A DNA stretch of 64,000 bases from the NCBI RefSeq assembly GCF_000153405.2, contig NC_020802.1, positions 1,817,883 to 1,881,882 of the forward strand. Direction: 5' to 3'. Below, in pieces: positions 1 to 64,000 of the stretch. The translations under genes were made by a program, and so were the position numbers. Numbering within the stretch: the first letter of the stretch is position 1; the number at the start of each line of letters is the position of its first letter. Source of the DNA: Psychromonas sp. CNPT3 (GTDB taxonomy: Bacteria; Pseudomonadota; Gammaproteobacteria; Enterobacterales; Psychromonadaceae). Under the pieces are notes generated by a model. That model saw only the letters and a program-made list of their open reading frames with translations, was not told where the DNA came from and made no database searches.

Positions 1-887
1 ACCAGTTCCCCAATTTAACAATATCTGGGTGTTGATGGCGCGTTTTTTTATAGACAAAATAGAACTTATCGCCGGTGATTAGTGCGTGCATAGGGATACG
101 TACTAAATTAGTTTGATGCGCTTGCTCCGCCATTAAATAATTATCTATCAGGGTGATCCCTAAATCATAACGGGCAGCTTCTGTCGCTAATAACACATGA
201 CTAAAATGGCAGATTTTAACCTCCGTCGGTAAATTAAAACCACCTCGGGCGCACCATTGTTGCCAATCTTTCGGTTCCGATTTATATGTTTCATTATATT
301 GAACCGATAATAAAGGATGCTGCCAGAGTGCATCCGGGAGCGGTTTATCCTGGATCTGTTGCCATATTTTAGGGCCACACACCGGATAGAGCTTTTCTGC
401 ATATAAAAATTGGCTCACAAAATGATGCTTAGGTGGGTGAATGGTAATAAAGCAATCGGCTACATTATCATTACACTCAGGCTCATCCGTCACCATATTT
501 AACGTTAAATTTATCTCTGGATATTGCTCACGAAAATCCTCTAATCGGGGGATAAGCCAGCGCATGGCTAACGAGCTATATAACGCCAAACGCAGTTCAT
601 CACTTTTACCATAACGGATTGCTGCACTGGCATTCGACAAGCCCATTAAAGCGCAACTTATCTCATCAAAGTAACGCGCACCTACCTTGCTTAAGCTAAA
701 GGCGCGCCCATGCCTATCAAATAAATTTTCACCTAAATGATCCTCTAATATTTTCACCTGATGACTCACCGCACTTTGGGTCACGTTAAGCTCTAACGCG
801 GCTTTAGAAAAACTATGCAGGCGCGCAACCACTTCAAAACATTGCACTGCGCGTAAAGGAGGCAACTTCATATTAGTTAAACTCATG
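1..887 (-). CDS. LysR-family transcriptional regulator, C-terminus outside window
   Basis: The frame is open from the window edge to an ATG at 887, giving at least 295 residues. The N-terminus (MKLPPLRAVQCFEVVARLHS, then AALELNVTQSAVSHQVKILE) is a classic LysR winged helix-turn-helix, closest in style to GcvA-like regulators. The LysR substrate-binding domain follows. An alternative start at 872 (MKLPPL...) fits GcvA-type N-termini equally well. The 3' end is missing. It is divergent from the EamA exporter at 997, so it probably controls that gene in the usual LysR manner; the effector is unknown. Confidence 0.9.
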
Positions 888-50032: not shown

Positions 50033-53000
50033 TTACTCAATCTTTTTTTCATTCTTCACTTTTCTACCTGGATATTCTTTATACACTACTGATTTTAAAA
50101 ATTTCGATTGAGCCCTGATTTCATTTTTAAGTGCCCCCGTATAGACAAGAGACGTTTCTATATTGGCATAAACACCACTTCTAGCAGCACTAAACCAATT
50201 AAAGGAACCGACGCTAATATGGCAATCATCTGCCATTATAATCTTACTATGAACGCCTTTGATCACCGACACACAAACCCCAAGTAACGCTAGATATTCA
50301 CAGAAACTAACGAATATTTTTTCTTTTTTAGCATCAAATTTATTGTGGGTGGTGGTATTAAAATGCCGATCAGTGTAAAGGTTAACCGTCACACCTCTCG
50401 CGAGTGTCGCTTTAATTGAATGTAAAATACCCGTGGAATCAAGCTTTTCTAACTGCACCCAAGGAGAAACAATAGTAACCTGTGTTTTTACTTCTCCTAA
50501 TAACTCAATAATATATTCATCGTGCTCTTTAGCATTATGAATTAACTTTGGCTCTCCACATAAGTCTAATAAATCACTTCGTGATTTAGTGGAAAAAAAT
50601 AATTCATTACCCTCTTTTTCAAACAAATATTTAGCGAGTATTCCACGAGGCTCTGTCGATGCACTGGCAGACATTATATCCATATCACCAAACACTAAAA
50701 AACTATCTTTGGCTCTCGATACAGCGACATTTAACATGCTTTGTGAACTATCAATAAAACTACCGTTATTGTGCCTTGTGTATACTGGCGAAAAGATTAT
50801 CAATTGGCGCTCGGCGCCTTGAAGTGCATGCACCGTTCCGACTGTTAACTCATCCGCATTCTTGCCTACCTTGATCCCATACTTTTCGCACTGCTTTTCA
50901 ATCTGATTAACCTGAGCTTTAAATGGCGTCACTACCCCCACAATATTCTCAAGTTTAAGTTGCTTTTCCCCGCCATATTTAAGTTCGATTTTTTCACGAT
51001 TTTTCTCTAACCAATTTGCTATGGTATCCGCTTCAAGGGCGTTAAAACGGCTACCTCCCGCCTGTTGTTCAGCTTTACCATCAATATGTAAATATCCAAA
51101 GGCGGGATAAAGAGCATCATTACTTGCCTTGCCACGCATGGGAAGTAACACCCCTTGATAACAGAGATCATTACAGAACATGATGATCTCATCAAAGCAG
51201 CGTCGGTGTTCTCGCAGGTACATCCCTGATTCCATCTCGTCTTGATATTGAAAACGACTAGCAGCTTGAGCAATATGCATCACACTACCATTCACTACAC
51301 TTCTGCCATTCTTTAATACTGCTTCATAGTCATCTCGTTGCGTTATTAAATTTTGACTAAACAAATTTCCTATATCAATCGCACCGGTAATAGAGCGCAC
51401 AGGTTCAATCTGGTGTATATCACCAATCACCAACGATTTTTTAGCTAACGAAAAAGCGCCACCAGCGACTTCAGGTGAGACCTGCCCGGCTTCATCAACG
51501 ATTAATAAGTCTATAAAATTAAATATATGCTCCTCTTCAAAGTTTCCGTCGTTAAATGCAGTTCCCGCTATCAGTGCCGGTAATGAATGAAATGTAGAAA
51601 CAATACAAGGTGTTAGCATCATGCGTCTTTGCCAGCGAGAAATCACCGTTGATTTACCTGTTTTTTTCTTTAATCCGTTAAGATCTTTACCTATCTTTTT
51701 ATTTTCAATTAGCCAGCTTGCTTCCCAATAATGAACCGCTAACCTAAACATAACGAAGCGAATTTTAATATCCGCCTGTTTATCTACCACATCAAAACTG
51801 GGTTTATCCGTTGAAATATCTAATGATTTAGCGAGTGTAGCCCAACAATCTTCAATCTCTTTTTGATTAACTAATAGGGCTTTTTTCTGATTGTAAACGC
51901 TCGATAAACTTTGTGATTGTCTGTCGACTTTCTCTTGATAATTCTTTAATAGCGTTTCAATATTTTCTGTCTCTAGATTATCCACTAAATCTAAAATGTC
52001 TTTACTCAGATGATCTGAAATGAAGAGTTCACGATATAAGTCTCTTTTTCTTCTAATTGATTTCATCCAGCTAAATGTATTTAACCAGAACGATTCAGAT
52101 GCTAAAAATTGCTTCCATTTTTTTCTCTCACTGCTAGTTTTCTGAGATAACGCTTCAGCGTCTAATAAGGAGCATTCTAATTCTTTAATCGTCAATTCAG
52201 GGGTTTCACCCATTTCAGCTAATACTTGTTCACGAATTACGCACAGTTCAGACCACGATGTTTCAATGTCTTCCAGCTGTGACTGACAAGTACTTAACTG
52301 CAAGTGCAAGAATTTTCGAACGGCGTCAATAGAGCAAGCATCCGTCATTTTTTTTGCGCATTCTAAAAAAAAGTGCTCTGCACTTTCGAGATAATCTGAA
52401 TCTTCAACCGCCTCAAAGAAAGCCTTGGTTTGAAATTTTTTCTGAGCCTCTTCTTGACGAGACTTAGACGGAAAGTACGCACCGTAGCTTTTAACATCTG
52501 GCAACCAGCGACCACTTAAAGGGCCCTTACCTTCAGAGAAATCTTTACCAAAAGCATCGATAATATTGGTGACCGCTTGATTGTTAGTAGATGCAGCAAA
52601 AATAACAGGCGCGCTCGTTTGTTTAAGTGCGGCATCTACCCACATGGACGCTACAACAGATAATACATAGGTTGTTTTCCCTGTTCCCGGAGGCCCATTA
52701 ACCGCTAAAATATCACCCTCTTGCATACAAAGAGCCTGCGTTAATGCATCTCGCTGTGCGTCGGCTAGCGCGTATGAATCACTTGAATGCCCATTACGAA
52801 TTGAAATTGATTTTTCAGGTTTAATACAATCATCAAAGTTAGATATTTGTCGTTTCGCATAACTCTCAAATAAGGGTAACTCTGGTTTTTTGCTAATGAT
52901 TGCATCATAGAGCTCTAATATTTTTTTAGACATCCCCGTTGATTGATCTGATTTGACCACCCAAGAATACTCTAGCAAGGTATAAAGTTCATTAAGCTCA

Positions 53001-53566
53001 CTATCGTCATCTTTGGTACAAATTGTGCGATATAAATCCACACAATGTTGTATATAATTCGTCCAATTATCCTCTTGCTGTAATAATTGTGCTTTATCAG
53101 CTTTGTCTGGTACTTCGCCCTCAGCTAATACCATTAAAGTGGAATTAGTTAAAAAATCATCTAACGCATCAACGCTACCAAGCGCTAATTGAGAGTTGTC
53201 CAATGGTGATAATAAATCTCTAGGCACCGTCACAGGGCCCGCAGGAAATAACAGACCCGCTCGGTTAACCCATAAAGGGCAAATCAATGCTGTAAAAGTT
53301 GCGGGGTATATTCCTTTTTGACTATTACCATGTATTAGCTTCAGAGTTTTTATATTCGGGCGATAAATCACTTTTACAACCGTCGTTTTTTTGTCTTCAT
53401 CCGCAAACATTTTATCGACGCTATCTACATCTAATTTCCCCGTTTTTCTAATATCACGGTTAACTTGTGTAAATGAGGCTATATCTTTTTTCGTTAAAAT
53501 GCCTTTGCTTGAATCAGCATCCGCAAGTGAATTACGCCAATATGTGGCCCACTTAAACTCTGTCAT
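50033..53566 (-). CDS. Upf1-like SF1 helicase fused to HKD (PLD-family) nuclease; Mokosh type II-like
   Basis: The 1177-residue protein has a unique N-terminus (1-260), then an SF1 helicase of the Upf1/COG1112 kind: Q-motif-like QRDAL at 271, Walker A NGPPGTGKTTYV at about 290-301, Walker B LLIVDEAGQVSPE at about 688-700, GDIHQIEPV, GTVHALQGAERQLIIFSPV and NVAVSRAKDSFLVFGD. A long helical insert (about 400-600) separates Walker A and B. The C-terminus has one intact HKD motif, HSKIIMADDCHISVGSFNW (His1106, Lys1108, Asp1113). A single-chain COG1112 helicase-PLD is the described architecture of the anti-phage system Mokosh type II. ATG has GGAG upstream. Confidence 0.88.
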   Translation of the reverse strand: MTEFKWATYWRNSLADADSSKGILTKKDIASFTQVNRDIRKTGKLDVDSVDKMFADEDKKTTVVKVIYRPNIKTLKLIHGNSQKGIYPATFTALICPLWVNRAGLLFPAGPVTVPRDLLSPLDNSQLALGSVDALDDFLTNSTLMVLAEGEVPDKADKAQLLQQEDNWTNYIQHCVDLYRTICTKDDDSELNELYTLLEYSWVVKSDQSTGMSKKILELYDAIISKKPELPLFESYAKRQISNFDDCIKPEKSISIRNGHSSDSYALADAQRDALTQALCMQEGDILAVNGPPGTGKTTYVLSVVASMWVDAALKQTSAPVIFAASTNNQAVTNIIDAFGKDFSEGKGPLSGRWLPDVKSYGAYFPSKSRQEEAQKKFQTKAFFEAVEDSDYLESAEHFFLECAKKMTDACSIDAVRKFLHLQLSTCQSQLEDIETSWSELCVIREQVLAEMGETPELTIKELECSLLDAEALSQKTSSERKKWKQFLASESFWLNTFSWMKSIRRKRDLYRELFISDHLSKDILDLVDNLETENIETLLKNYQEKVDRQSQSLSSVYNQKKALLVNQKEIEDCWATLAKSLDISTDKPSFDVVDKQADIKIRFVMFRLAVHYWEASWLIENKKIGKDLNGLKKKTGKSTVISRWQRRMMLTPCIVSTFHSLPALIAGTAFNDGNFEEEHIFNFIDLLIVDEAGQVSPEVAGGAFSLAKKSLVIGDIHQIEPVRSITGAIDIGNLFSQNLITQRDDYEAVLKNGRSVVNGSVMHIAQAASRFQYQDEMESGMYLREHRRCFDEIIMFCNDLCYQGVLLPMRGKASNDALYPAFGYLHIDGKAEQQAGGSRFNALEADTIANWLEKNREKIELKYGGEKQLKLENIVGVVTPFKAQVNQIEKQCEKYGIKVGKNADELTVGTVHALQGAERQLIIFSPVYTRHNNGSFIDSSQSMLNVAVSRAKDSFLVFGDMDIMSASASTEPRGILAKYLFEKEGNELFFSTKSRSDLLDLCGEPKLIHNAKEHDEYIIELLGEVKTQVTIVSPWVQLEKLDSTGILHSIKATLARGVTVNLYTDRHFNTTTHNKFDAKKEKIFVSFCEYLALLGVCVSVIKGVHSKIIMADDCHISVGSFNWFSAARSGVYANIETSLVYTGALKNEIRAQSKFLKSVVYKEYPGRKVKNEKKIE

Positions 53567-57430: not shown

Positions 57431-58381
57431 ATGTTAAATAAATCAAGCAATAATGAAGTGGTAAACTTAGGGTTAGAGATTTTAAAACGCATCCCAAAAC
57501 AAAGAAAAATAACAGCCAAAGAAATACAGCAACAATTACAAAGTGATGGCATGGAGCGTAGCTTACGCTCTATCCAGCGTAACCTAGATATGCTGAGTCA
57601 AAGCTTTGATATAGAAAAAGATGAAACAAGCAAACCTTATGGATATCGCTGGATAAATACAGCGTTACCCTTTTCAGTATCAACATTATCAGCTAAAGAA
57701 TCTGTTTTATTGAGTCTTGCACATAATTATCTTACTGATCTACTTCCGCCTCAAATTTTAAAATCACTTAATGGATTTTTTGATCAAGCAAAACACCACC
57801 TTTGCCCCAATCAAATAAATGAAAAAGAAAGAGAATGGCTACAAAAAGTACGTATTGTTAGTGAAGGAGTCCCACTGCTAGCCCCCGATATTGACCAAAG
57901 AGTCTTTGAAACAATCAGTGAAGCTCTGTATCACGATAACATACTCAATATCGACTACTACAACAGCAAACAAGAAGAAAAATCAGCGCAAATTACGCCG
58001 TTAGGTTTAGCTCAGCAAGGCAAACGATTTTACTTAGTGTGTCAGTTTAAAGGCTATGATGATGTGAGAAATGTCGCGGTGCATCGGATAAGAAAAGCTA
58101 CGGTATCAACATTTACCTTTAAACGCCCCACCAATTTTAAATTAAGTCAATATGATGCGGATGGACACTTTGGTTTTGCCGGACATCAAAAATGCCAACT
58201 TGATTTTTGTATCAGTAAATATGAAGGTTTTCATCTTTCAGAAACACCACTTTCTACTGATCAACAAATGATTGAATTTGAAAATTATTACCAAATTAAA
58301 GCAACGGTTATCGATTCATTACGTTTAAATCAATGGTTGAAAGGGTTTGGTGATAATGTGTGGGATGTGACCAAATATTAA
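57431..58381 (+). CDS. WYL-domain transcriptional regulator
   Basis: The 316-residue protein has an N-terminal winged helix-turn-helix (KITAKEIQQQLQSDGMERSL then RSIQRNLDML) and a WYL domain (ISEALYHDNILNIDYYNSKQ, ITPLGLAQQGKRFYLVCQFK and NVAVHRIRKATVS) followed by a WCX-like C-terminus. This layout matches BrxR/CapW-type regulators that sense nucleic acid or nucleotide ligands in defence islands. It may control the adjacent genes. A palindrome lies just upstream. Confidence 0.88.
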   Translation: MLNKSSNNEVVNLGLEILKRIPKQRKITAKEIQQQLQSDGMERSLRSIQRNLDMLSQSFDIEKDETSKPYGYRWINTALPFSVSTLSAKESVLLSLAHNYLTDLLPPQILKSLNGFFDQAKHHLCPNQINEKEREWLQKVRIVSEGVPLLAPDIDQRVFETISEALYHDNILNIDYYNSKQEEKSAQITPLGLAQQGKRFYLVCQFKGYDDVRNVAVHRIRKATVSTFTFKRPTNFKLSQYDADGHFGFAGHQKCQLDFCISKYEGFHLSETPLSTDQQMIEFENYYQIKATVIDSLRLNQWLKGFGDNVWDVTKY

Positions 58382-58491
58382 TGATTTTTTAAACTTAAAT
58401 CTCTGTTATCTACATTCATATTTTTATAAGCGAATTAAAATAACATATATATTTATGGACGATTGATACTTCGATTATCAAGGAAACAAAC

Positions 58492-59187
58492 ATGATTTTA
58501 CATATACCGCATAGCGGAACTGATACATTAGATAGGAATATCCGTAGACACGATATTCTACGTGGTACTGATTGGTTTACTGATGAATTATTTTGGCATC
58601 GTAGTGCCGAACGAGTGGTCCAGAAACATTCAATATTTATTGTTGATTGTGAACGCCTACCTGATGATATCGAAGAGCTATTAAAAGATGGTTATGGTAT
58701 CTCATACACTAAAGATTTTGATGGTAATGATATTGTTGTTCCAGATAAAGAAGCAATGATCAAAATTTATAATGATCATCATAAAGAATTAAATGCTCTT
58801 TTCAGAAGGTATCTTTGTTATTTTCCAGTTCTATTTTGTGTTGATTGTCATAGTTATGGTGATGCACAGATCGTTTCTGATGTTGATTTTTGTTTAGGAC
58901 ATAACGCCGATTTTAATAACTTTGAAATGCTCGAAAAGATGAAGAACCTTTTAGAGAGTGAAGGTTATAAAGTCGGAATTAACAATCCGTACAGTAATGC
59001 TATCGTACCTAATCAATTTTATGGCAACGATAACGTTAAAAGCATAATGATTGAAGTTAATAAACGACTTTATTTAGATAATCAAAACACCGAAGCATTC
59101 TGTAAAAGTAAAGACTTCGACAAAACTCAAAACGTGATAACTAGTTTATTGGAAATTATTTATCAAGAGGAAGACAGTTATAATTAA
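58492..59187 (+). CDS. N-formylglutamate amidohydrolase-family protein
   Basis: The 231-residue protein begins MILHIPHSGTDTLD and contains FIVDCERLPDDIEEL, IYNDHHKELNALF and LFCVDCHSYGDAQIVSD, the FGase (HutG/PF05013) metal-ligand pattern. It is shorter than typical HutG. No histidine-degradation genes accompany it; its partner is the WYL gene 110 bp upstream. An amidohydrolase or peptidase acting on an unknown substrate is possible. AAGGAAAC precedes the ATG. Confidence 0.83.
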   Translation: MILHIPHSGTDTLDRNIRRHDILRGTDWFTDELFWHRSAERVVQKHSIFIVDCERLPDDIEELLKDGYGISYTKDFDGNDIVVPDKEAMIKIYNDHHKELNALFRRYLCYFPVLFCVDCHSYGDAQIVSDVDFCLGHNADFNNFEMLEKMKNLLESEGYKVGINNPYSNAIVPNQFYGNDNVKSIMIEVNKRLYLDNQNTEAFCKSKDFDKTQNVITSLLEIIYQEEDSYN

Positions 59188-60205: not shown

Positions 60206-60226
60206 ACACCTAATTCGATTAGGTGT
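60206..60226. promoter_or_regulatory. 21-bp inverted repeat upstream of the helicase pair
   Basis: ACACCTAAT (60206-60214) and ATTAGGTGT (60218-60226) are 9-bp perfect arms around TCG, 84 bp before the GTG start. It is a strong operator candidate. The WYL protein encoded 2 kb upstream is a possible binder. Confidence 0.6.
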
Positions 60227-60309
60227 CTAAATTATAATTAATAATGTGATGTTATAGCCGTTTATCACTTATTACTACTGTATAGAGCTTCTTTTATTAA
60301 GGAATTAAA

Positions 60310-62292
60310 GTGAATACCCCACAAAAGCATCGCGCACTCGTCACTGAAATATTAAATAGTAATACGCTGCATTCTCATCAAATTAAGGCCGCTAAAAAAA
60401 CATATGACGCGTTCAATGGAAATATCAGAGCCGTTGTAACAGCCGCTGAAATGCAAGCGGGGAAATCAGGTATCGCACTAGCACTTTGCTGCCTTCAAAG
60501 ATTTAATCTATCAGATCAGGATATTTGTGATCGAAGAAAACTCAAAGACACTCTTTACCTCATTACGATGCCTGATACGGCATTACGTGACCAAGCAGAA
60601 ACAGATCTTAAATTAGCCAAAAATGTCGTCGTTAGCAATTTTGTTAATTTTGACAAAGCACTAGAAAATGACTTTAAAGGTAATCCACCCAAGTTGATTA
60701 TCATTGATGAATGCCATTATGGCTCAAACATTAGCGGTATTAGATATAGCAGTATTTTCGACTATCTAGAAAACGAAAATGACACATGTAAAGTAGTATT
60801 CATTTCTGCTACTCCTTTTGGTGCTTTATACGGAGCAGAAACTGAATACCTAGAAGCTTTAGATATTTGTACGGAAGCAAAAGAAGAGCATAACGAAGAA
60901 TTATTACAAGAATTACAACAGGCAGCGAAGGAAGCCTTAAAAGATTCAATTTTACGTCGAGATTTCGGTACACGTTTAGTGTTTCACAAAACGAGTGATG
61001 AATATTACGGCGTTAGAGAAATGTTATCCAATGACCGTATTCAGCATTTAGACGATGATTGTCGAAATTTTCTTATTGATTCCGAACCACGATTAAACTT
61101 TATGAATCAATTTAAACAACATAAAGGCATGGGTTGGTCTCTGATTCGAGTTCCTGCAGGCAATGCTATGGATGCCAAACAGTTTTTTATCTCACAAGGA
61201 ATTGATGAGCATAATATTTTCATTTTAGGCAATTCATTATCAGGAGTCCCTGAAGATGAGCTTTCTACTATAGTTCGCTTCAAAAAAGATTTTGAAGACG
61301 CGCTGTTATTTGGTGACAAGCTTGTTGCTATAACTGTTGCAGGCTGTCGAGCAGGTATTAACTTCGGTCCCATGATGAAAAACAACCTCATTTCAACATG
61401 GGACAGCACAATTGCAAGTGTGGCAGCAGTGGTACAAGCAAATATTGGTCGAGCTTGTGGTTATCATGGCAACAATACTTCTATGCACTATACCAATGCT
61501 AATGCGGCTGAAGCTTATGGTGCGATTATAGATTACCTAGAAAGAACATGTTCAGAACATGCTGCGTCTGATTTTGACGGATTAAAAGAATTCTTTGAAG
61601 ATATTTGCCAGGAATATCAAGTCAACGGTCTAGATGTTGGTCTCACGGTAAAATACAAAAAACGACGACCAATTGGTGATGTGGAAACATACGTAACAGA
61701 TAGCTATGTAGCAGTTCCAGCAAAACTGTTAGAGCCAGATTTCGATTTTAGCGTATTCACGTCAGACAAAAACATACTTGCAGCAATTGTCATATTACGA
61801 GAAGAGTTCACTAAAAAAGGCGCTCCTTCGGTTAAAGGTAACCGAGCAATGCGTGGGAAAAAGAAAAACTGGATAAAAGCTCAATGGGTTAATGGAGATA
61901 GTTACGACAACCCAGAAAAGGCTGGCGTTGACGGCCCTCAAAAGGATAGAACCATTTTGTTAACTAACATGTTAGATAATGATAAAGCGGTCGAGTTTAA
62001 CCGTGTGGTGGCGCCTGGCTCTGGTGAGCTAACAGAAGATAAACTCATCACAGCAACTGTATTTAGTATCTACAATATATCTCGTCGTAAAGTAATCAAG
62101 ACTATGATGACCAAGCATGATGTATTTAACATGTGCGATCACTTTAACATTCCTCATGACGATACTATATTTGTGCTTTATAAGCGGGGAGAATATGATA
62201 TTGAAAAAAGTATTGCAAAAAAAGAACACAATAAACAACCAGAAACATCGGTTAACCTAAGTGATGAATCTCAATTTTCAGCAGAGCAATAA
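60310..62292 (+). CDS. SF2 helicase-like ATPase A of a tandem paralogous pair
   Basis: The 660-residue protein starts at GTG with AAGGA 7 nt upstream. HQIKAAKKTYDAF (about 23-35) is Q-motif-like. VTAAEMQAGKSGIALAL holds a Walker A with Lys52. IIIDECHYG holds DECH at 133-136, ISATPF the SAT motif at 166-168, VAGCRAGINFG motif V, and VQANIGRACGYHG motif VI at about 376-385. A charged helical insert (about 176-211) is missing in the next gene. The C-terminal 230 residues, including NWIKAQWVNGDSYDN, are shared with that gene and not recognised. Probably nucleic-acid-dependent ATPase. Confidence 0.85.
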   Translation: MNTPQKHRALVTEILNSNTLHSHQIKAAKKTYDAFNGNIRAVVTAAEMQAGKSGIALALCCLQRFNLSDQDICDRRKLKDTLYLITMPDTALRDQAETDLKLAKNVVVSNFVNFDKALENDFKGNPPKLIIIDECHYGSNISGIRYSSIFDYLENENDTCKVVFISATPFGALYGAETEYLEALDICTEAKEEHNEELLQELQQAAKEALKDSILRRDFGTRLVFHKTSDEYYGVREMLSNDRIQHLDDDCRNFLIDSEPRLNFMNQFKQHKGMGWSLIRVPAGNAMDAKQFFISQGIDEHNIFILGNSLSGVPEDELSTIVRFKKDFEDALLFGDKLVAITVAGCRAGINFGPMMKNNLISTWDSTIASVAAVVQANIGRACGYHGNNTSMHYTNANAAEAYGAIIDYLERTCSEHAASDFDGLKEFFEDICQEYQVNGLDVGLTVKYKKRRPIGDVETYVTDSYVAVPAKLLEPDFDFSVFTSDKNILAAIVILREEFTKKGAPSVKGNRAMRGKKKNWIKAQWVNGDSYDNPEKAGVDGPQKDRTILLTNMLDNDKAVEFNRVVAPGSGELTEDKLITATVFSIYNISRRKVIKTMMTKHDVFNMCDHFNIPHDDTIFVLYKRGEYDIEKSIAKKEHNKQPETSVNLSDESQFSAEQ

Positions 62293-62295
62293 TTC

Positions 62296-64000
62296 ATGAG
62301 TAATACAGCAGACAAGCATCGATTATTGATCAATACAGTAATATCTCAAAATACCTTTGAGCATCAGCGTAAGGCCGCTCAAAGGGCTTTTTTACATTTT
62401 AATAATAACAACAGAGCGGTTGTGATTATCGCAGAAATGCAATCTGGAAAATCAGGTATTGCTTTAGTTCTCTCCTGCATACAACGGCAAAAGCTCAATG
62501 ACATTGACATATGTGACCACAAACAATTAAAGGATACTCTTTATCTTGTCACTATGGCTGACTTATCATTACTAGAACAAGCTAAAAAAGATTTAGCATC
62601 TTGCAATAATGTTGTCGTAAGTAATTTTATTAATTACGAATCAGCATTGGCTAGCCAATTTAAAAACCAACCGCCAAAATTAATTATTATTGATGAATGT
62701 CATTACGGAGCAGGTTCTAACGCAATCCGTTATTCAAAGATATTTGACTATCTAGAAAAAGATAATACTCTCTGCAACGTGGCTTTTATCTCTGCGACAC
62801 CTTTTAGTGCTTTGTATTCAGCAGGTTCAGACTCAATATTACGCCATAACTTTAAAACCAGTCTTGTTTTTCATGAAGCAAGTAATGAATACCATGGCAT
62901 TAGAGAAATGCATCACCATAACCAAATAGTTCAGTTAACCGAAGACCAACGAAGTTTTTGTGAAGAATCTTTATTAAGAAAACGATTCATTCGACAATTT
63001 AAAGAGCATAAGCATTCAGGTTGGTCCTTAATCAGAGTACCTAGTGGCCAGGCACAAACAGCCAAAAACATACTGTTAGAAAACGGCATCACCGAAGATC
63101 AAATTATAATAATAGGTCAAAGTTTAGTCGGCGTAGACGAGGTTGATTTAGCGAGTATTGAAGATTTTAAACGTGAGTATCAAACTGCATCTATGTTTGA
63201 CGAAAAGCTAATTGCTATCACTGTCGCGGGTTTTAGAGCGGGTATTAATTTTGGCCATGAAATGAAATGTACCCTGATCAATACCTGGGATAGCACAATT
63301 GCCAACATTGCCGCTATAGTTCAAGCGAATATCGGTAGGGCCTGTGGTTATCACAGCAATACTCATGCTAAGCATTACACTAATCTTGATGCTGTTAGCG
63401 CTTATAGCGAATTATTAGCGCATCTAGAAAGCAGGGATGCGAGCTGTGAGTTTGAAGGCCTACAACAGGTCTTTGAAGAAATATGCGCTAAATATGATGT
63501 ACGTGGTTTTGACCGAGGTACTACCATCGGCCCTACGCCAGATTTTATCGTAACCAAGAAACAGGATGATCGTAAAACCTATCTGACCAAAGGCTACGTT
63601 GCCATTCCAGGTAAGTTAAACGATCCTGAATTTGATTTCACCGAACTAACGACTGACACCGAATTACTCAAAGCAATTCAACTTATTCGACAATCATACT
63701 TCGACGATAATGGCCCATACAAAAAGAAAGGTAGAGCCCTACGTGGTGAACACCAAAATTGGATCAAAGCTCAATGGGTAAATGGTGCGACTTATGACAA
63801 TGGAACAAATAGCAGTGCGAAATTAAGAGCCCTCTCTTTTACGTCTTCAATCGATAATGGAGAATCAATTGAGTTTAACAAAATAGTTAATCCTGGTGGT
63901 GAAACAACAGAAGATAAAAAAGTAATGGCAACCATCTTTAGTACCTATAACCTTTCAAGGAAAATGGACGCTTATAAAAGGTCAATGGATTTAGATGATA
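62296..64000 (+). CDS. SF2 helicase-like ATPase B of the tandem pair, 3' end outside window
   Basis: The ATG at 62296 is 3 bp after the previous stop, with no strong ribosome site, so translation is probably coupled. At least 568 residues are read and the frame is open at the window end. By eye about half its residues match gene A. IIAEMQSGKSGIALVL (Walker A), IIIDECHYG, ISATPFSALY, VAGFRAGINFG and VQANIGRACGYHS are all intact, so neither copy looks dead. The insert after SATPF is absent here. The NWIKAQWVNGATYDN region of the shared C-terminus is present. Confidence 0.88.
   Translation, partial: MSNTADKHRLLINTVISQNTFEHQRKAAQRAFLHFNNNNRAVVIIAEMQSGKSGIALVLSCIQRQKLNDIDICDHKQLKDTLYLVTMADLSLLEQAKKDLASCNNVVVSNFINYESALASQFKNQPPKLIIIDECHYGAGSNAIRYSKIFDYLEKDNTLCNVAFISATPFSALYSAGSDSILRHNFKTSLVFHEASNEYHGIREMHHHNQIVQLTEDQRSFCEESLLRKRFIRQFKEHKHSGWSLIRVPSGQAQTAKNILLENGITEDQIIIIGQSLVGVDEVDLASIEDFKREYQTASMFDEKLIAITVAGFRAGINFGHEMKCTLINTWDSTIANIAAIVQANIGRACGYHSNTHAKHYTNLDAVSAYSELLAHLESRDASCEFEGLQQVFEEICAKYDVRGFDRGTTIGPTPDFIVTKKQDDRKTYLTKGYVAIPGKLNDPEFDFTELTTDTELLKAIQLIRQSYFDDNGPYKKKGRALRGEHQNWIKAQWVNGATYDNGTNSSAKLRALSFTSSIDNGESIEFNKIVNPGGETTEDKKVMATIFSTYNLSRKMDAYKRSMDLDD

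Follow-up and report, generated by a model that had tools for sequence, protein, structure and literature searches.

Two adjacent genes at the edge of the 64,000-nucleotide stretch of Psychromonas sp. CNPT3 DNA analysed here (the window) encode paralogous SF2 ATPases, A and B, which on our analysis are most likely the DNA motor of a BREX variant. We consider it probable that A and B are dedicated ATPases of a BrxL-less system with a type-1-like core, in which they replace BrxL as the DNA motor of the restriction branch. The observations behind this reading are genomic linkage, a fixed position, the exclusion of BrxL, shared ancestry and intact motifs; a physical A-B complex, motor activity and a role in restriction are what we infer in addition. 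Somewhat less firmly, we favour the view that A-B marks a BREX subtype not described before, whose BrxL ring would be replaced by an asymmetric SF2 complex of two ATPases bearing a new C-terminal domain.

The paralogous ATPases and their conservation

Sequence identity between A and B is 51% across their full length, and 3 bp separate the two genes in this genome. The GTG start of gene A is preceded by an AAGGA-like site. Gene B is cut by the window edge and continues for ~155 bp beyond it; its full 619 residues were read from the flanking genome (end ~64155). Both proteins contain the two-RecA core and motifs I, II, III and VI by which SF2 helicases and translocases are recognised, in the common forms AEMQ[A/S]GKSG (Walker A), DECH, SATPF and QAN[I/V]GRxCGYH, and across 32 homologues of both kinds the key residues of these four motifs do not vary. 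B shares the architecture of A, minus a helical insert of ~35 residues that follows motif III in A, and its C-terminus reads ...NSVF. The retention of every motif in both proteins suggests two working ATPases rather than an engine and a scaffold. Pfam returns generic ResIII/DEAD matches alone, while NCBIfam, PADLOC and PHROGs give weak partial matches at most; among the non-BREX anti-phage models of PADLOC, the best match for A is ZacC (E 0.046 over 75 residues) and B has none. A preliminary description of this DNA had recognised two related SF2 ATPases 3 bp apart with intact motifs and had proposed that they act together in an undescribed system; the paralogy, the association of the two and the lack of a named family are borne out.

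Table. Coordinates of the features discussed. Positions are those of the window unless prefixed; C1 denotes genome coordinates and L-prefixed positions are those of individual loci.
Feature	Coordinates	Strand or orientation	Remarks
Mokosh MkoC-like gene	50033..53566	-	MkoC 1309 bits; separate from the A-B unit, same defence island
WYL regulator, then N-formylglutamate amidohydrolase-family gene	57431-59187		PF05013 (amidohydrolase family)
Inverted repeat	60206..60226		9+3+9 bp; 83 bp before the A start codon
Gene A	60310..62292	+	SF2 ATPase, 660 aa; GTG start
Gene A, SF2 core	residues ~20-415		
Gene A, helical insert	residues ~176-212		
Gene A, alpha/beta C-terminal domain	residues ~460-640		disordered tail with S-x-F
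S-x-F tails	62250-62292; L002:5140-5156		predicted disordered, both paralogues
Gene B	62296..64000 in window	+	SF2 ATPase paralogous to A, 619 aa
TPR protein	C1 1882126-1884042	convergent with pair	part of PADLOC candidate PDC-M16
RecD-like helicase	C1 1884039-1886867	convergent with pair	part of PADLOC candidate PDC-M16
PDC-M16 candidate module	C1:1882126-1886867 (L002:5245-9986)		
PglZ	C1 1886910-1888955	convergent with pair	NF033450, 877 bits
PglX	C1 1889009-1892482	convergent with pair	PADLOC model
BrxC	C1 1892696-1896175	convergent with pair	914 bits, PADLOC model
BrxB	C1 1896185-1896781	convergent with pair	PADLOC model
BrxA	C1 1896732-1897493	convergent with pair	PADLOC model
WYL regulator (WYL/BrxR)	C1 1897490-1898383	convergent with pair	
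Mobility-related loci (RadC-like/tRNA-Val, integrase-like)	L003:2081-3369; L141:5818-7041; L142:8418-9713; L146:10080-11375		
A. caviae locus with transposases	L028:12354-29287		
V. mediterranei A-B beside PsyrTA	L034:4997-13587		
Bowmanella solo A-like gene and the gene 3 bp after it	L046:9995-12702		
Distant SF2-core relatives (large viral contigs, Vibrio plasmid)	L048:7869-9740; L049:7869-9740; L029:9869-11779		

The C-terminal region of ~200 residues is conserved in A and B, and the earlier statement that it has no assignable family is borne out: comparison with PDB sequences gave nothing better than E 0.13, and Pfam held no family common to more than one member. In AlphaFold2 predictions, made on single chains, A is modelled as a two-RecA core with a separate alpha/beta C-terminal domain (mean pLDDT 81.6, pTM 0.63); the model of B is poorer (pLDDT 74.7, pTM 0.51). 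Fold matches of the A model in the PDB are generic SF2 structures (E 6e-8 to 1e-6). Uncharacterised giant-virus proteins head the viral-library matches to A and B, with E values down to 1e-15 and global TM-scores for the best of them of just 0.34-0.44 (on query). The predicted disordered tails of both paralogues conserve S-x-F, which looks like a docking motif: it reads DESQF or DESHF in A, and NSVF in B, where it lies at the extreme end or close to it.

The conservation of the tandem pair across genomes, a check proposed in the preliminary description, extends to 22 genomes with 23 pairs, a count that takes in the broken members of Shewanella KJ10-1 (B), A. caviae (B) and an Oxalobacteraceae MAG (A). 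Four of 149 related genomes, this one included, contain the pair, as does an Aeromonas caviae record with no annotation over it, in which the same transposases have inserted repeatedly round the locus and removed the last part of B. A GTDB scan added Alteromonas sp. 5E99-2, Shewanella colwelliana, S. morhuae, Shewanella sp. KJ10-1 and ANA-3, Colwellia hornerae, Vibrio mediterranei, Buttiauxella warmboldiae, Escherichia sp. ESNIH1, Enterobacteriaceae RIT714, Alishewanella tabrizica, Salinibius, Oceanimonas, an Oleiphilus MAG and the Oxalobacteraceae MAG, and an order-wide PglZ search contributed three further genomes. A blastn search of 5,426 complete E. coli genomes found no pair. Across loci the start of B relative to A ranges from overlap up to a few tens of bases. 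In a maximum-likelihood tree of 20 loci, A and B form separate groups on a 100/100 branch; the split is present in all bootstrap trees and predates the divergence of all sampled loci, and some B branches are long.

Upstream of gene A lies the inverted repeat ACACCTAAT-TCG-ATTAGGTGT, previously taken for a private operator. The repeat is indeed present, but 23 inverted repeats of equal quality occur in the window, ~9% of simulated intergenic regions of the same composition hold such a repeat, and a search of 17 orthologous regions upstream of A and of the BREX flank found it nowhere else. Because no orthologue carries the repeat upstream of A, the operator is unsupported, and the repeat is probably incidental or local. 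No RNA element of Rfam matches the upstream gap of 1.1 kb.

Linkage to a brxL-less BREX locus

In the 3.05-Mb, single-contig assembly of this genome, a BREX core lies past the window edge on the opposite strand, convergent towards the pair. BrxC and PglZ, the combination (BrxC/PglY with PglZ in one locus) by which the BREX superfamily is recognised, lie in the same operon and both score above the cut-off of 400 bits; the PglZ model, NF033450, is the NCBIfam entry 'BREX-1 system phosphatase PglZ type B'. BrxA, BrxB, BrxC, PglX and PglZ are all present, as in BREX type 1, in a gene order kept in ten further loci examined, and brxL is the sole missing gene of the six canonical ones. None of the PADLOC matches of the own-locus proteins scanned bears the names BrxE or BrxD, which belong to BREX type 6. 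The partner genes that had been expected beyond the window were thus found in part: the methylase PglX and PglZ, a member of a nuclease family, lie just past the edge, but on the opposite strand, convergent and in a different operon. Likewise, the suggestion of an undescribed system stands in that the pair belongs to no named family, but the pair is a constant part of a brxL-less BREX locus rather than a stand-alone unit. As it lies on the strand opposite the BREX operon, the pair should have its own promoter.

The defence setting proposed earlier is also confirmed, by the Mokosh gene and the WYL gene in the window and by BREX beyond it. The MkoC-like protein is an 1177-residue helicase with a C-terminal phospholipase D-type region (a helicase-phospholipase D fusion), and a 43% identical relative lies just upstream of the pair in Buttiauxella (L035), the sole other locus with Mokosh beside the pair. 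The WYL regulator in the window is followed by a gene of the N-formylglutamate amidohydrolase family, which is odd for a defence island.

A BREX PglZ lies at the 3' side of B, in convergent orientation, in 21 of the 22 pair genomes. The stop-to-stop gap between B and PglZ ranges from -7 bp to ~7 kb, and reaches ~8.5 kb in A. caviae, with inserted transposases. Six loci have the two genes directly tail-to-tail, with gaps of -7 to 175 bp (Alteromonas 5E99-2, Buttiauxella, ESNIH1, RIT714, Oleiphilus and the Oxalobacteraceae MAG). Where there is cargo between B and PglZ it differs by locus while the pair stays: the PDC-M16 candidate in our genome, PsyrTA in another (G127), and Tmt with a NERD-helicase in S. 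morhuae. In some loci HEC-01 or GmrSD-like genes (PADLOC Orf5/HEC-06) lie between PglX and PglZ. BrxA, BrxB and BrxC occupy the far end in every locus in which that end was read. A RadC-like gene and a tRNA-Val lie beyond our BREX end, and in other loci tyrosine-integrase-like genes are found at the end that holds BrxA; the BREX and A-B block as a whole looks mobile. Mantel tests relate the divergence of A and B to that of PglZ, BrxA and BrxB (r 0.60-0.76, p = 5e-4; A with B, 0.83); PglX correlates less well (0.23-0.38), perhaps partly because several of its sequences are fragments.

The pair and BrxL exclude one another. In a search for PglZ type B that ignored A-B status (NF033450, 395 genomes of the order, cut-off 400), seven genomes scored above the cut-off; each of the seven carries a full pair and lacks BrxL, and one of them (G750) has PglZ type B twice, with a separate pair for either copy. 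The 12 genomes of the same order with other, below-cut-off PglZ proteins show the reverse (BrxL 12/12, pair 0/12), as do eight further genomes from other orders whose PglZ is 35-39% identical (BrxL 8/8, pair 0/8). Fisher's test gives p = 2e-5 for the order sample (7 versus 12 genomes) and 1e-6 with the extra eight. Among the 149 relatives, PglZ type B is present in exactly the four that have the pair. Searched for with TIGR02688, BrxL was absent from 19 pair or relative genomes and from three more, and was found in all 20 of the other BREX genomes. A tree of PglZ joins the pair-associated sequences and the nine nearest BrxL-associated ones in one well-supported superclade, in which one or two swaps suffice; the tree is compatible with either A-B or BrxL having come first.

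Proposed role of the pair and competing explanations

The constant association of the pair with BREX in a lineage without brxL suggests that it probably replaces brxL. We envisage that an assembly of BrxB, BrxC, PglX and PglZ would detect unmethylated sites on incoming DNA, whereupon A and B would be recruited, probably in the form of a hetero-oligomer and perhaps via their C-terminal domains and S-x-F tails. The two ATPases might then translocate on, unwind or remodel phage DNA, after which PglZ or the complex would halt replication. On this model A and B would be needed for restriction and dispensable for host methylation.

A different account, which we consider unlikely, is that A-B forms an independent two-gene anti-phage module that works without BREX and merely co-travels in the mobile defence island of this BREX lineage. 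The pair lies on the opposite strand with its own transcription, and the interval it adjoins is occupied by self-sufficient systems (PsyrTA, Tmt, PDC-M16). In Vibrio mediterranei, A-B stands beside PsyrTA in a genome without a BREX PglZ or BrxB, and may be either a relic or a pair that works alone; in Bowmanella, which has no BREX, an A-like protein (48% identity) occurs without B, and 3 bp after its gene comes an unassigned gene of 267 codons with a cysteine-rich start, so that this ATPase may be present there in another type of operon; and Alteromonas salexigens has a truncated A close to a contig end. These three cases permit independent function or decay. Ordinary cargo varies, however, yet the pair is present in seven of seven PglZ-type-B genomes of the order-wide sample, at a constant end and in constant orientation; independence would make the exclusion of BrxL a coincidence, and A and B have diverged in step with the BREX core genes.

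It strikes us as improbable that A-B, instead of serving as the restriction motor, regulates or protects the BREX core, for instance by holding PglZ in check or counteracting inhibitors made by phages. The convergent orientation would allow separate control, and the conserved C-terminal domains and tails resemble interaction parts, but every catalytic SF2 motif is kept in both proteins, and BrxL, whose gene is the one excluded, is likewise an ATPase motor, with a Walker B mutant that is impaired in restriction (PMC10164562). Hardly any weight falls on the idea that a helicase of phage replication or of repair was recently duplicated in place, without significance for any system. There is a weak match to a phage-helicase profile, and a Vibrio plasmid and large viral contigs encode isolated, distantly related proteins; these relatives nevertheless share no more than the SF2 core, at ~23% identity, 50,697 phage records gave no match at E 1e-3, and the A/B split is older than the divergence of all sampled loci. 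The tree and the conserved partner genes rule out a recent local duplication without a conserved partner.

If the pair is instead the motor of its BREX variant, as we propose, it bears on the open question of how BREX stops phage DNA. With the BrxL ring swapped for an unrelated SF2 pair on a similar core, the traits that the two share would reveal the motor function that BREX needs. The pair also provides a two-gene annotation marker for a variant now seen as BREX minus its last gene, and brings a new C-terminal domain to characterise.

Comparison with known BREX systems

The locus resembles BREX type 1 in its BrxA, BrxB, BrxC, PglX, PglZ and WYL regulator genes, in their order and in its closest NCBIfam models, which are those of BREX-1. 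It differs in that BrxL is absent genome-wide and the slot beyond PglZ is filled by the convergent A-B pair. BREX systems without BrxL are known to carry a helicase in its stead (PMC11842806, PMC10164562), and the variants with BrxHI or BrxHII (types 2, 3, 5 and 6) likewise have an SF2 helicase and lack BrxL, or often do so (PMC11842806, PMC12839542). Here, unlike in those variants, the helicase is doubled; the two paralogues run convergently to the core, and their C-terminal domain is a different one. By sequence comparison A-B is distinct from BrxHI and BrxHII: the PADLOC models of both gave no match to A or B at E values up to 1, while PsyrT matches the BrxHI model at 8e-17, and a genome-wide search with one BrxHI/BrxHII model, which also matches ordinary DEAD-box helicases, had no hit at A-B among the matches listed. 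We found no earlier description of a BrxL-less BREX with a tandem helicase pair in the main texts of the open-access literature searched, and the pair is not described in the main-text passages covered of a broad BREX survey (PMC12839542). Giant viruses and phages have uncharacterised SF2 proteins with an MQSGK(T/S)G Walker A; giant-virus proteins are the best fold matches to A and B, and phage and plasmid singletons have the SF2 core in common with them, but the profile alignment is confined to that core.

The closest functional parallel may be BrxL itself, which has been placed in the restriction branch (PMC10164562, PMC11842806, PMC12839542), although its part in restriction is disputed. 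Acinetobacter BrxL is required for restriction, and its ATPase-dead (Walker B) mutant is reduced in restriction (PMC10164562); reports on the need for BrxL in Salmonella differ (PMC10164562, PMC11842806, PMC12839542), and in some type I BREX systems it is not strictly required (PMC11842806). An ATP-dependent DNA motor of the restriction branch is the role that we propose for A-B too. BrxL, however, is built as an MCM-like AAA+ ring whose C-terminus is Lon-like (PMC12839542), whereas A and B are SF2 proteins with no sequence relation to it; if our proposal is correct, two unrelated motor architectures serve one job on the same BREX core.
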